From Sphagnum magellanicum (lineage: Eukaryota; Streptophyta; Sphagnopsida; Sphagnales; Sphagnaceae), in contig CM038908.1 in the NCBI GenBank assembly GCA_021904315.1, positions 29,440,001-29,504,000 on the forward strand: a stretch of DNA of 64,000 nucleotides, given 5' to 3'. Below are positions 37-58,905 of the stretch, piece after piece. Position 1 is the stretch's first letter; every line of letters begins with the position of its first letter. Position numbers and translations under genes: made by a program. Under the pieces are notes generated by a model that ran no database searches, had not been told where the DNA came from, and worked only from the letters and a program-made list of their open reading frames with translations.

Positions 37-2562
37 ATGGAGGACGACAGCAGCGGGGGAGGCGGCGATGGCGGGGAACTGGTGGGGGACGCTCACAACC
101 AGCACCACCACCACCACCATCTGCAGCAGCATCATGATATTATAGGCACGTCGGGCAGCCACGAGCTGCTGCAGCAGCAGCAGCCCGATCACCAAGACTC
201 CGAGTTCGAGGAGGAGCACGTGTTGGGCAAGATCGAGAGCCCACACAAGGGGCCGGGGAGGGAGCCGGCTACGGAGTGGAGCGAGGCCGCAACTTCGGTC
301 TTGATTTCTGCTTTCAGGTAAAGGAAGGTAACCGTCACTCCAATCGAATGTGTTTTTTAGCAATTTTCATATGTTCTCCATGACTGTGCAGTTTCGGTGT
401 CCTGATCATCGACTCCTCAAAGCGAGCAAGAAATAGGGTGCTTGTAATAACCTGGCTGGATCCGAGTCTGTTGCGAAAAGAGGAATGTTTCTTTCTAGCT
501 GGCCATGATTTCACAACATTTGTCTGTATTCTTTTTGTGGTATTGGAGCTGAGAAATGTGGCTGTGGTGTGTGTGTTTTGGTTTCTCTTAAACTCAGGGT
601 GTGTCTGCTTCTTGATTGAACTGGTTAAAAGAATTGGACGAACGCAAACTATTGAGTTGGCTTCGCAGAGAGATCAATGGTCTTCTTTCATGCTGCTTAG
701 GTTTTTGAGGCTCTGAATTTTTCAGGAGGCATATGAGTGTTACAAGACATGAATATTGTTGTCACTGACTGTAACCCTAATTCCAAACAGGGAGAAGTTT
801 CATGCCTTGGACCGCAGCAACTTCCGTAGCAAAGACTGGGCAGAAGTTTCCAAGATAGTCAATGCACAATGTGTGAACGAGAAGAGCCCCAAAACACAGG
901 AGCAATGTCGCATGAAGGTGGACAGCCTGAAGAAGCGCTACCGTCAGGTAATGAGACAACAATAGAATAGGGAGAATTATTTTTTTGTTGGAAGAAGTGA
1001 TGGAATGGTAATGTCAGTTGCTGCCAATTCCCAGTAAAACTCAATAAAATCTTAGCAACATTGTCACCATATGCGGGGTTGTCTCCCTGCTGGCTGCAAT
1101 GAGTGGTGGGCTTGTCAATCTCAGTTGAATGTTGTAAGGTCCTAGAAGTGGCTATTACTTGAGGGACCTTGTATGAAATATAATCTTTGAAGCCTTAGTA
1201 TTTGTGACAAACAGTTACATCTTGAAGGCAGCTGTCATTGTATTCTCCGGTACTGTAAGTGATAGCAAATCATTGGCTTCAGTAGGCTGATGGGAAATCT
1301 AACACAATTCATGATCTGTGTGTGCTGGTAATATGCTGTGCTCCATATATGGAATATATTGATGGATTCTTCTCTATTGTGAACCATTGCAGGAGAAAGA
1401 CAAACTGGCTGGTAACATTCCCTGTAAATGGCCCTGGTTTGATGTGTTAGATGATCTGATAGGGGGCAGTCCTAAGCAGTCACGGATTGGATCTGCTAGA
1501 AAGCAGGCTCGCTTCCTCTGCTCCCCTCCCCCAGCTCGACCCCTAAGTGTTGTGCATACTCCCTACTTTGGAGGTGTGGAAAATGTCTCTATCTTTCTCC
1601 CTGCTGTGGCTGTCCTCACTTTGGTTTCTTGTCCAGTCCTGGCTCATAATTGCTGTTCTTTTGTACTTTGTTTGCTAATATCCAAGGACAACCTGATTCA
1701 TGTGCTGGATTTGTATCTCTTTTATTCTGGTTTCTGGGGATCTTTGTTCGGCCTGTTCCCACTGATGAATTTCTCATCAGAATCCCATGCGTCTTCATCC
1801 ATCATGTCAACTGGATGGCTGGTTGCGGACATGAATACTATCATATCAGCAAACCTGAATTTATTTGGAGGTGTTAGGATTTGATGAGTAGGGCTGGAGA
1901 AGAGAGTTTCTGAGAAGGTTGGATTCATTTTTGCCGGGGGATATGTGCAGCAGCTCTTTCACCAAGTGTGTATCTTAAGAAGAAGTTGACAAGAGTGGTT
2001 AGTCTTCAAGACGGTTTGGATCAGGACCTAATGGCAGGTTCCTTAGAGGACAACATTGAGGCTTTGCTTCACAACTTTCTGGAAGAAGAGACAGCTCGAG
2101 ATTTTGCCAAAAAATTGGCCTCCAGTAAGTATACAGTGGCCACACTGCTCGAAATGTCAGATAGGGAGCTTGATGAAATCATGACTGAAGAGTTTATAGA
2201 TGCTGCCAGGGGTGAAAGACGTGGATTTAAGGCTGCTATCTGGTCTAGGAAGCGGAAGCTAGCTCAAGGTAAAGCTTCTATACTCTGCAATCTCCCAGTG
2301 GTGCTATATAGGAGGTGATTGCCTAAAGATGCTCCATTCAACCATAGTAAATGCACTGTACTTCAGCATCAAAATTGCAGAGCCCTTGAATGTGGTTTCA
2401 AAGTCTACTAGTCTCTCATTTCTGTGGCAGTGTGTTCTGATAATCTCCTGCATTGCAGAGAGTGAAGAGGATATGGAGTTAGCAAATACAAGTGGATCAA
2501 TGCTGGAGATATCTGACAACTTTGCAAAGAAGGAGAAGAAATCAGGGTCTTTTGTTCGATAA
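37..2562 (+). CDS. Trihelix transcription factor with C-terminal LEAFY-SAM-like domain, five exons
   Basis: Exons 37-317, 791-947, 1393-1573, 1951-2268 and 2459-2562 join at GT-AG borders with matching phases (2,0,1,1) to give 346 aa ending in TAA. Residues 1-79 are acidic and low-complexity, with a His run (HHHHHH) and a Gln run (QQQQ). Residues 80-170 form a trihelix (Myb/SANT-like) DNA-binding domain: EWSEAAT, then SKDWAEVSKIVNA, SPKTQEQCRMKVDSLKKRY and the closing KWPWFDVLDDLIG, as in the ASIL/6b-interacting group. Exon 4 (residues about 238-312) holds TVATLLEMSDRELDEIM and GERRGFKAAI, close to the LEAFY N-terminal SAM domain (there TV-TLLDMKDEELDEMM and GERYGIKAAV). Inference: a nuclear DNA-binding protein that oligomerises through this domain. 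The codons before the ATG at 37 are open to base 1, so the true start may lie outside the window. The exon 3 donor at 1574 is the least certain junction. Confidence 0.88.
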
Positions 2563-3197: not shown

Positions 3198-6300
<3,103 letters not shown>

Positions 6301-33127: not shown

Positions 33128-35050
33128 CTAAGTTCTGTCCTCAAAATTGCTTGCAGAATGCATCCGTGTAAAATACTGCCTGGTGAAATTGGACTGGAAT
33201 TTGATGGGCTTGTGGTTGTTGTTGCTGCAGCTCAAAGAAGCAAGATAAGGAGGAGGAGGAAGGGGAGCTCCTGCTGCTGGATGATAAGCTCGTTGCCGCA
33301 CTTGACCAGTTCCTTGTTGAACTACAAGCCTGGCAGTAGCAATCTGGTGATCATGCAGATCATAAGCACCAGCTTGATCAGGTGGAATCATCATCCCTTC
33401 ATCATCGGAGACTCTAGCACCTCCTGCAGGGGCTTTCAATGAAGCCCTGCTGCATCCAAACCCCAAGGGTCTTGTGTTGTGACTGGAACTGGAGCTCACA
33501 GGCCTTGTTCTTGATCTAGAGCGCATCATCTGCTTCAGCTGGCGGCCTATGAATCTCCCCAGTCCCGCAATGAAGGCTTTCTTCTTCTTGAGCTTGAAGA
33601 TTCTCGTCCATATGTTGAAGGGTAGCTTCAGCAGATGCGTGATCCGGCGTAGCGTAAGTGTCGTCTCACTGCCCGTCTGTTGCTGTTTTCTGGAGCTGCC
33701 ACTCCAGAAAGGCAATGGAATGAGTTTGCTTACCTTCGTCAAGCTCTGCACAACCTCGTCCATTGAGGGTCGCCGCGAAGGCAGCGGACGTACGCAACGA
33801 GCGGCCACTTGAGCCATGTGCTTCAAAGCTGCCGTGCTCTCAGGAGCTGCGATTTGAGGATCGCAAATCGTCAGCGCGCTTCCTTGCTTGATCAGAGGTA
33901 GCGTCCAGTCCAGCAGACTGAGAGGTGCGAAGTCATCGCCTGTAAGAAGCGCCAGAGAACTGCTGTGAGTCGACAAACATCAAAGCAACAAACTGGTTCA
34001 CTTGTTCTTGATCTAGAGCACGACAACTATTTCACACTTCTGCAAGGATTCTACTTGTGCAACAAAGCATATCGAGAAAAGTCAGAAAAGACTCGAGAAA
34101 CCAGAGGAGATTTTCGGGAATTAGGTACCCATGGAAACTGGAGTTGAGCCAGTAATGAGCTCCAAAAGCAGCATGCCGAAGCTGAAGACATCGTTTTTCG
34201 GGCTGATATCCGCCATCGCCTGATCTGTACCCAGCTCCAAATTCTCGCCACCGATCCAGTCCTCCACTCCTGACCATGGTCGACTCGGGGTCTGGCAGAG
34301 ATGGGAACTACCATCGACCATCTCAGGAATAGACGACAACAAGCTAGCGGAGCTTTTCCTCGGGCATTCGTCAGAAGCTCCGCTACTGACGCTCAAGGAC
34401 TGCACACAGCGCGCGAGACCAAAGTCGCCGAGACGCGCACACCAGTGTCGATCAATGTAGATGTTAGAGGCTTTCACATTGCGGTGAATGATGGGTGGAC
34501 TCGAGGCGTGCAGAGCGCGGATGGCTTTTGCTGTCTGCAACGCAAGGTTGACGCGTAACGCCCAACTGAGCTTCGCAGCTTCACCTCCGCCTCCACCGTG
34601 CAGCTTCTCGTGAAGGGTCCCATTCTCCATGTACTCGACAACGAGGAGTCGTACCTTGCCATCACAGCTGTAGCCGAGAAGATTCACCAAGCGGCGGCTG
34701 AAGAGCTTAGTGAGAATCTGTATCTCGTTCTCGAATGCGTCGTCTCCTTTCCACAGACGACCCATTATCGGGCGCTTCACGGCCACTACACGACCGTCCT
34801 TGAGCACGCCGCGATAGATTTGGCCGTGGTTTGCGCGGCCGATGAGATTCTCCTTGTCGAAGCCCCCAGTTGCTGCCTCTAAGTCCTTGAACTTGAAGCG
34901 CTGCAAGACCTGGCTCTTCGTCACCAGTGGCACATCGCTCGAGTAGCGATTCGACGACGAAGGTCTGAATGAGACCACCATGGCGCGGAAGCTTTGATCC
35001 TTCCCAACACGGCCAAATTGTGCAATGGAAACCGAGAGACCCCGATACAC
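33128..35050 (-). CDS. Receptor-like cytoplasmic kinase (At3g51990/At5g23170/CR4-like type), probable pseudokinase, two exons
   Basis: Exons on the minus strand are 35050-34129 and 33939-33128, with a 189-bp GT-AG intron in phase 1; the product is 577 aa. There is no signal peptide or transmembrane segment, so it is cytoplasmic. The kinase domain starts near residue 52 (FKFKDLEAATGGFDKENLIG). The glycine loop reads GRANHG (71-76), lacking the second Gly. The ATP lysine is in AVK (K92) with Glu109 in the C helix. VEYMENGTLHEKLHG is at 138-152. The catalytic loop is HRNVKASN (189-196) with Asn for the catalytic Asp, DFGLAR is intact (209-214), and the activation segment is long and atypical. 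DVFSFGMLLLELITG and DWTLPLIKQG follow in C-lobe order, with ARCVRPLPSRRPSMDEVV in exon 2. A long Ser/basic C-terminal tail has a KKKK patch. Known for the family: Ser/Thr signalling kinases. Inference: weakly active or a scaffold. Met24 at 34981 is an alternative start. Confidence 0.93.
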
Positions 35051-35600
35051 GACTAAAGCTCAATTGCTTGCAACGCCACTGCTACAGCTAAAAACAGACA
35101 TGAAGAATGCAACTTAGATGGATCTCAAAATCAGTACCACCTGCAGCAAGCTACAATCCTTTCTAGAACCCAAAATGCAGCTCACTCCTAAATCATTCTA
35201 CGGAACAACGAGAACCTCAAGCAGAAAACAGGTCTGCAACGAACTCATTCGCCGCATGACAGCTTCTACCGTGCCTCAAGCTGGCAGCTCAACTCACTCA
35301 TTGATCAATTCTCTCTCTCTCTCTCTCTCTCTCTCGCTCTCTCCCAAATCATGATTCTCCAGAAGCTTTCGAAAATGCCAAACACGATTCCAAAACCCAA
35401 AGCTACAAAACGCCTAATGCGAAACCTAAGGACGAAAACAAAACAAAAACTGGCACAAAACTAATACGAGTGCAGCTTACATACAAAATTGAATACAGGA
35501 GGAGCTCAGCTTGTGAAGCTACGAAAGCTCAAAACTCAAGACTCCAAGTACTAAGTTCTTGTTTGCTCTCTCTCTCTCTCTATGACTGAATCCAACAACA
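35051..35600 (-). promoter_or_regulatory. 5' leader and promoter region of the kinase gene with (CT)n tracts
   Basis: Upstream of the kinase start. It contains plus-strand (TC)n at about 35311-35343 and a shorter one at 35566-35582, which read as (GA)n on the gene strand. GA/CT tracts are common in plant leaders and promoters and can bind BBR/BPC factors; a role here is inferred. No TATA box was fixed. Confidence 0.45.
35311..35343 (+). repeat. (TC)n microsatellite
   Basis: About fifteen CT dinucleotides with one GC interruption near the end. Confidence 0.95.
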
Positions 35601-56754: not shown

Positions 56755-58905
56755 TGAAAGAATCTGAAAGTTTTGGCTCTTGAAGTCCTCTCTGAAAGCT
56801 TTGTTCTGTGATGCTGACAGATTTTGGTGTCAGCGCCTGACCCATTGTTTTGGCAGATCAGGTTTTAGGGTACAGGAACATCATTGCCTGCTCCAGATGG
56901 CAATGGGATGGTGATCATGGGCTTTCTAACTGCAACTTTGAAGAATGCCATTGAAACTGTGCAGGCAACTTGAATCTCATTCATGCAGTCGTGCAACAAT
57001 TAACAGGCCACTGAGTTTGGGGTGAAGCTGTGCAAAATTTCCCAATGCTCATGAGCATCAATATTACCAATGATGGCTACTATAACTGCAGCATCCCAAA
57101 GCTGTTAGTTATATGGGAAGTAAGTAAGCTATATCAAACCTTGCAATGTCTCACAGTATCTCCTTCTCTGCATTTTCTTATATGGGTTGCTTTGAATCCT
57201 ACCACAAAGAACAATGTCATCAAGCATTGGATTCAAACAAACTGTAAATACCATCATTGCAATCTGGAAATTCAAGGAGTCAGAATTTCTGGTGTTGAGT
57301 TTTGACAAGTTCAACCTCAAAAGCATCCACAAGTTTGTGTGGCCTCTGAGAAAACTGATACTCACCACTTTGAGTGATGCAGTCTGCTGGAACAAGGAAA
57401 AGTTGTACAACAGTAATTGCTACATGGTGACATGCATCACTGATTCATCACCTTCTTGTTGTCTTGTTGTAGGTAGCTGAATAAGCTGGAAACACATAGG
57501 GATGCATGATAACACATACATTGATGGGCTTCTTGTGCTGAGCTAAATGGAGGCTTTGGTTTATCTTTTGCAGATAGTATAATGCACACCTGCTGCTTAG
57601 AAATGTCATGCAAGGGGCTCAAACAACTGAAGCAGATGTTGAGGTATGCTTAAGGGGACCAGCTGCAGTGATGATGTATTCCAGTAGTATAAACCTCAAC
57701 AGTGTTCAAAGCTGCAGTGCAAGCCCAGTGATTCTTGACTTACCATTGAACCAGTTGAATAGCAGTCTCAGGCATGTTGAGTACTGTTGTCACAATGGCA
57801 CCATCTTGCCTGCCATAACTGATCCCTCACAATCAAAGTCAGCTTTCACAATGAAATATGTCTAAACTTCTGCCAAATACTTCAGCCACTATCCATTTGG
57901 TCTCCCCTGCCAATTGGAGGATTGGAGATGGGCTATATAAGTGTGCATCCCTTCCATATTTCCCAAACCCTTCAGACATTGTGCATTCATCATCAGCTTT
58001 GAAGACCTGGCAGGTGGGGTTTCTTTATCCTGTTGTTTTCAAAGTTAAATGCAGAGTTCTGATCATGGATTCCTTTTGCAACCGAGAATCTGTCACATTT
58101 CACCAACCTAATAGTGAAATCCTAACGAGATTGTTATCTAATGTTAGGGTTGTTCTTGTTTTGGAATGTGTAATACTTGTCTGCATCTAAAGAGGTGACC
58201 ATACGATATGTTTTGACTGTGATTTTATAGTCTGTCTGACAAAACTTTGTGCATTGTTGGGTGTTTTTGGACATGCAAATTTCATTACTATCACACAGGC
58301 ACCAAAACATCATGTGTCTTTCTCTGGATTTTACAATGACTCTATTGTCCCATGCCCAACATGTGCATATGGGTGTCCGAAGAAACCCCAACCCATATGC
58401 AGTGCCACTAGCACTGCTCTCCTTCACCTGTACTCAGCTCTAACAATGGCTCCCGTGAACCAAATGAACCAAATCCTAGCCTGGGCAGGTGTTCAACATG
58501 AGGCGTTGCCAGATCCACTACCCTGCCAAGACTATTGTGGGGTGAGCTTAAACTGGCATATTATTTCAGATTGCACTGATGGATGGAGTGCCCATATGAC
58601 TATATTTGATTGGTCTAACCAAACATTCCCAGGCTGGTTTCCTGCAATTGAACTTGAAAAGGCATTTCCAGGCTTCCAACAGGCATACTCATTCAATGCA
58701 ACATCAATCCCAGACATGAATAACACCATTTTGGTGGAGAATTTGCCAGGTCTAAATTATTTGATTGCTGCTCAGAATTTTGGTGCAGGAATGCTACATT
58801 CAGTGTTGGATTGGTTCTGACTCCTGGGATTGAGATCCCGTTTGGAGATGGGTTTCCAACTAAGGTTTGGTTTAATTGAGAAGAATGTGGCCTCCCCAAC
58901 ATCTA
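56755..58905 (+). pseudogene. COBRA-like (COBL7/COBL10-type) pseudogene
   Basis: Collinear but broken similarity to the long COBL subgroup. In order: ILVSA (about 56820), GTGTSLPAPDGNGMVIMGF and LKNAIET (56871-56960), NITNDGYYNC (about 57060-57090), YNSNCYMVT (about 57406), QGAQTTE (57610), ILDLPLNQLNSS and EYCCHNGTILP (57733-57812), NWRIGDG (about 57910), SALKTWQV (57990-58013), an intron-like gap, then FYNDSIVPCPTCAYGC (58330-58378), CGVSLNWH (about 58535), FNATSI and NNTI (58693-58725), and GDGFPTKVWF (58835-58865). Intact family members are GPI-anchored cell-wall proteins that help orient cellulose. Disruptions include in-frame stops at about 56812-56820 and near 56869, a frame change near 56961, one near 57858, one near 58800, and TGA where the family has Gly (about 58868-58870). 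Retained introns argue for a duplicated gene, not a retrocopy. Confidence 0.82.

Follow-up and report, generated by a model that had tools for sequence, protein, structure and literature searches.

Does a trihelix (GT factor) protein of a moss carry the oligomerisation domain of LEAFY, the principal regulator of flowering, and if so, what would that domain do there? The question is raised by a gene at the start of a 64,000-nucleotide stretch of the Sphagnum magellanicum genome (hereafter the window), in which a preliminary description of the DNA had recognized a trihelix domain followed, in exon 4, by motifs of the N-terminal SAM domain of LEAFY/FLORICAULA (LFY). Here we report that the exon 4 domain is homologous to the LFY SAM. 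Computation gave the structure of the gene, its two domains, the fold predicted for the SAM, the homology, conservation among the moss proteins found and strong purifying selection. We consider it likely, at roughly 70%, that the gene encodes a moss transcription factor in which a trihelix (GT-type) domain is joined to a C-terminal LFY-homologous SAM giving head-to-tail contacts and cooperative binding.

A LEAFY-type SAM domain in a trihelix protein

The trihelix domain was recognized by Pfam on the open frame that includes exon 2 (Myb_DNA-bind_4, E 2.1e-9, 38.1 bits against a cut-off of 27), and the four full-length fusions that were scanned reach 57.1-62.0 bits with the same family. The LFY motifs read earlier in exon 4, and their spacing, proved correct: the exon matches SAM_LFY (PF01698) significantly, at E 2.4e-7 and 31.1 bits (curated cut-off 25.2), with 28.7-29.3 bits in four other scanned fusion proteins. 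In the window protein the match spans about 2106-2264 and corresponds to profile positions 20-76 of 80; since it starts at position 20, helix 1 is without a sequence match there, whereas in the relatives P0003, P0004 and P0006 the matched part already starts at position 6 or 7 of the profile. An alignment of helix 1 of the window protein with that of LFY is plausible by eye and offset in the joint alignment, and we do not claim it. A structure model of the close relative P0002 shows a five-helix SAM, and its best match among solved structures is the LEAFY SAM (PDB 4UDE), in agreement with the SAM-like domain proposed earlier.

The window protein is without the LFY DNA-binding domain (PF17538). 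In the genome searched (439 Mb in 31 contigs, the window being on contig 2), the eight matches to this domain all lie elsewhere, none near the window, in four loci on C1, C2 (34.06 Mb), C3 and C13, each with a SAM match beside it.

Oligomerisation interface and proposed mechanism

In the LEAFY SAM, T72, T75 and E83 lie on the mid-loop face, and the end-helix face includes R112 and R116; the T75E or R112E change makes the domain monomeric, a mutant altered on one face can still bind a partner in which the other face is present, and the domain is linked to cooperative binding of LEAFY to arrays of sites (Sayou et al. 2016, PMC4844672). All six trihelix SAMs compared keep T72, T75 and E83 (6/6), and R116 is likewise kept in 6/6.

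We propose that the SAM would join monomers head-to-tail, each mid-loop face docking against the end-helix face of the neighbouring molecule. Such contacts would tether several trihelix domains together, and the tethered domains could then bind cooperatively to arrays of GT-type sites, in the manner of LEAFY at its targets. Self-association, cooperative binding and access to closed chromatin are what we infer for the trihelix–SAM protein by analogy with LEAFY.

A substitution in the end helix limits this proposal. R112 is W in 6/6 trihelix SAMs, and the full LFY end-helix pair R112 + R116 was found in none of them; G70 is likewise replaced, by K, in 6/6. With T72, T75 and E83 kept and R112 replaced, the mid-loop face appears intact and the end-helix face altered. 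A W at position 112 is absent among the changes described in the parts of PMC4844672 consulted. The main rival explanation is a true LFY-type SAM that is one-sided, forming dimers or capping chains of LFY or other SAM proteins and not polymerising by itself. Such a domain would be consistent with the residues just listed and with the pairing of LFY one-face mutants with other-face partners (PMC4844672), and LFY partners exist in the genome, in the four loci that combine a SAM with the LFY DNA-binding domain. The end-helix face may nevertheless still work, since R116 is retained and, W112 apart, the helix has a strongly basic character (WSRKRKL); we regard a one-sided SAM as possible and rather unlikely.

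Shared descent with the LEAFY SAM

Could a generic helical or SAM domain have come to resemble the LFY SAM through convergence and not descent? Generic SAM domains share parts of the pattern, and SAM_KSR1 gave a weak match (E 0.11) below its cut-off. It was, however, the one SAM family besides SAM_LFY to appear in Pfam at an E limit of 10, a listing limited by the HMMER filters, which discard most weak matches. When a profile of six trihelix SAM copies was compared with 177,635 distinct PDB sequences, the sole match at E<=10 was the Ginkgo LEAFY SAM (E 1.5e-4), and no other SAM structure was matched by sequence at that limit. In hhalign, the trihelix SAM profile aligned with an LFY-SAM profile (five Sphagnum sequences and one from Arabidopsis) at a score of 51.6 (E 8e-10), with 42% identity across 53 columns. 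The highest score among 150 column-shuffled versions was 20.0 (mean 11.0, standard deviation 2.5), which excludes chance resemblance, and the reversed profile scored 11.9. Convergence is, in our judgement, very improbable.

Gene structure, conservation and selection

The features of the gene are collected in Table 1. Its five exons have GT-AG borders and matching phases throughout and join into 346 codons plus a stop. Exon 4 lies where it had first been placed, as an open frame with phase 1 introns on either side. Its donor is CAAG/GTAAAG, the GT directly following 2268; its acceptor is a tandem CAGCAG (window 1945-1956) that can be cut after 1950 or 1953, both in frame, so that the choice adds or drops one alanine and a start at 1954 gives 345 residues. 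A paralogue elsewhere in the genome (contig 5) has a single acceptor before its SAM exon. This paralogue and the Sphagnum compactum protein P0001 both read as though the equivalent of 1954 were used, so exon 4 may mainly begin at 1954, as far as these sequences indicate. The remaining borders are TCAG/GTAAAG at the exon 1 donor, CAG/GAGA and GGAG/GTGTGG around exon 3, with consistent phases, and TTGCAG/AGAG at the exon 5 acceptor. The encoded protein is 97% identical to P0001 over its whole length, and the exon 5 tail is kept across the moss proteins P0001-P0006.

Table 1. Coordinates of the trihelix–SAM gene within the window
Feature	Position	Strand	Content
Exon 1, coding part	37..317	+	ATG; Gly/His/Gln-rich low-complexity N-terminus; trihelix start EWSEAATSVLISAF (~274-315)
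Exon 2	791..947	+	Trihelix (Myb/SANT-like) DNA-binding core
Exon 3	1393..1573	+	Trihelix end (KWPWFDVLDDLIGG, to ~1467), then linker
Exon 4	1951 (or 1954)..2268	+	Linker and LEAFY-type SAM domain; NAGNAG acceptor
LEAFY-type SAM domain proper	~2037..2267	+	Five predicted helices
Exon 5	2459..2562	+	Short C-terminal tail SDNFAKKEKKSGSF and stop codon

With the whole protein as query, both Pfam domains were found in 6/57 proteins: two S. compactum clusters, one protein each from Ceratodon and Physcomitrium, and two further clusters whose longest contigs (1,984 and 1,600 bases) are both shorter than the 2.5 kb of the window gene. A query with the Physcomitrium SAM region, which gave 163 candidates, recovered these six again at E<=0.001. 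The same architecture thus recurs in other plant proteomes, the named carriers being mosses; together with the fitting phases, these two-domain proteins point to exon 4 and the trihelix exons belonging to one gene, as first described. That exon 4 instead comes from another gene, through an artefact of the gene model at a locus known from genomic DNA alone, is the least probable explanation of those considered here, given the agreement of splice sites and phases, the identical five-exon order of the paralogue, and the recurrence of both domains together in further genera of mosses and in the two clusters of short contigs.

Because the search tool requires shared five-residue words and similar length, distant non-moss relatives could escape it. 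Among the 50 trihelix relatives P0008-P0057, of which the named ones are angiosperms, PF01698 is not listed in any. The genome contains at least 31 trihelix matches; the two fusion genes account for four of them, as exons, and for each of the remaining 27 the contig either lacks a SAM_LFY match or has its nearest one at least 817 kb off. The fusion is already annotated in the sense that precomputed Pfam labels show both domains side by side. We found no description of it in the open-access literature by title or abstract start, and one may be in print elsewhere; by term search, the word trihelix is absent from two papers on LFY evolution (PMC8742948, PMC6588583).

Divergence between the window gene and the contig 5 paralogue was counted by the Nei-Gojobori method in our own implementation. 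Over the 75 codons of the SAM, nonsynonymous divergence (dN) is 0.006 and synonymous divergence (dS) 0.573, from 1 nonsynonymous and 20 synonymous differences; both this dN and its ratio to dS are the lowest among the parts of the gene. The corresponding dN and dS values are 0.213 and 1.082 for exon 1, 0.057 and 0.516 for exon 2, 0.038 and 0.235 for exon 3, 0.093 and 0.410 for exon 5, and 0.081 and 0.542 for the whole gene.

A second moss family and the origin of the SAM

Of 12 SAM_LFY matches in the genome, two are the trihelix genes. Four further loci (C6:6919825, C9:16340151, C12:4573156 and C12:4576615; L009, L011, L010) have a C2H2/BED-like exon upstream, with the SAM some 0.9-1.2 kb downstream of it on the same strand, and no match to the LFY DNA-binding domain lies near these four. 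The SAM at one of these loci scores 43 bits, and a structure predicted for P0060, a relative, resembles 4ude_B (root-mean-square deviation 1.4, E 1.1e-3). PF01698 is labelled on 24/47 relatives of the family and not on 23/47; the organisms named among them are Sphagnum, Physcomitrium and Ceratodon. Some members bear the UniProt name 'Floricaula/leafy-like transcription factor', probably on account of the SAM alone. A BED zinc finger as the N-terminus of the family was not established (zf-BED 12.8 bits, cut-off 20.6), and PF26664, a precomputed label on some relatives, is absent from the Pfam copy scanned. A tie to hAT transposases would be conjectural. The existence of this second carrier family strengthens the earlier suggestion that the LFY SAM was shared or shuffled among plant DNA-binding proteins.

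Two other loci, C19:14735925 (L013) and C2:19465814 (L003), have strong LFY-SAM matches and no match to the LFY DNA-binding domain nearby; they are perhaps truncated LFY copies. L013 has W at the R112 position, as in the trihelix SAMs.

The relationships of these SAMs were examined in a tree of 29 rows and 76 columns, comprising six trihelix sequences (the window protein and P0002-P0006; P0001 was omitted as near-identical to the window), eight LFY sequences (six from this genome, Ginkgo and Arabidopsis) and 15 of the 47 zinc-finger-like relatives, 17 of which had been taken into the structure alignment. The trihelix SAMs group with the Sphagnum LFY sequences L001, L002 and L006, whereas L003-L005 are the neighbours of the zinc-finger SAMs. 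When the Arabidopsis LFY and L006 were left out (27 rows), the trihelix SAMs remained with L001 and L002. L006 has W at position 112, like the trihelix SAMs, and this shared residue may draw them toward it. A single origin of trihelix and zinc-finger SAMs outside LFY is weakly disfavoured: the best tree sets the two apart among LFY sequences, and holding them together gives, in an approximately unbiased test made once the tree had been inspected, p-AU 0.040 (29 rows) and 0.070 (27 rows). Profile similarity between the two SAMs is at noise level (hhalign 11.4, against a mean of 10.3 and a maximum of 17.6 in 100 shuffles). Branch lengths are large (2.39 and 1.93-1.97), and the well-supported branches of the 27-row tree, taken alone, are compatible with fewer than two origins. 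On these sequence comparisons, two SAM captures are favoured.

A broader and doubtful possibility is that the LFY-type SAM is an assembly module shared in mosses by LEAFY, trihelix and zinc-finger-like proteins, perhaps through two or more captures from separate LFY lineages, with compatible faces that would allow mixed or capped chains. If so, LFY target regions would be read jointly by unrelated DNA-binding domains.

Other features of the window

Convergent with the trihelix gene, an S-adenosylhomocysteine hydrolase gene lies on the minus strand at about 3200-6020 (AdoHcyase, E 1.1e-75 on 5456-6127; further exons were seen by eye in open frames). Open frames at 34121-35056 (-) and 58191-58817 (+) encode a protein kinase domain and a COBRA-family C-terminal domain, respectively. 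Scanning the window for tRNAs and against Rfam gave no match, and NCBIfam gave nothing relevant.

Comparison with known systems

With the SAM of LEAFY/FLORICAULA (PF01698, PDB 4UDE) the window domain shares the sequence family, the predicted five-helix fold, T72/T75/E83 and R116. It differs in having W for R112, K for G70 and a shorter helix 4-5 region, and the protein differs in carrying its SAM C-terminal to a trihelix and in lacking the LFY DNA-binding domain. Animal regulators with SAM domains, such as the ETS factor YAN and a polycomb SAM protein (PMC4844672), likewise tie SAM oligomerisation to DNA or chromatin binding, with other DNA-binding partners.

With the trihelix family the protein shares Myb_DNA-bind_4 and a GT-1-like predicted fold, and the named matches include ASIL2 and ASIL1-like proteins. 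It differs from this family in its C-terminal part: 40/50 of P0008-P0057 carry a QLE[IL] tail, and PF01698 is a label of none of them. The C-terminal tail is a feature that we take to belong to the SIP1/ASIL clade. Homology between the moss exon 5 tail and the QLE[IL] tail of these relatives is not detectable (hhalign 10.5, shuffle mean 9.4, with 26/100 shuffles as high).

The moss zinc-finger-like proteins share with the trihelix proteins an LFY-type SAM outside LFY, the named members again being mosses, and differ in having a C2H2/BED-like N-terminus (below Pfam cut-offs) in place of the trihelix. Besides LFY, two families of moss proteins thus have a homologue of its SAM behind a different N-terminal region, and they may be viewed as natural swaps around one SAM. 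One carrier is Physcomitrium patens, in which gene targeting is routine. Through these swaps, the question whether the SAM by itself confers cooperative or pioneer-like binding, and partnerships between LFY and SAM proteins in mosses, become testable.
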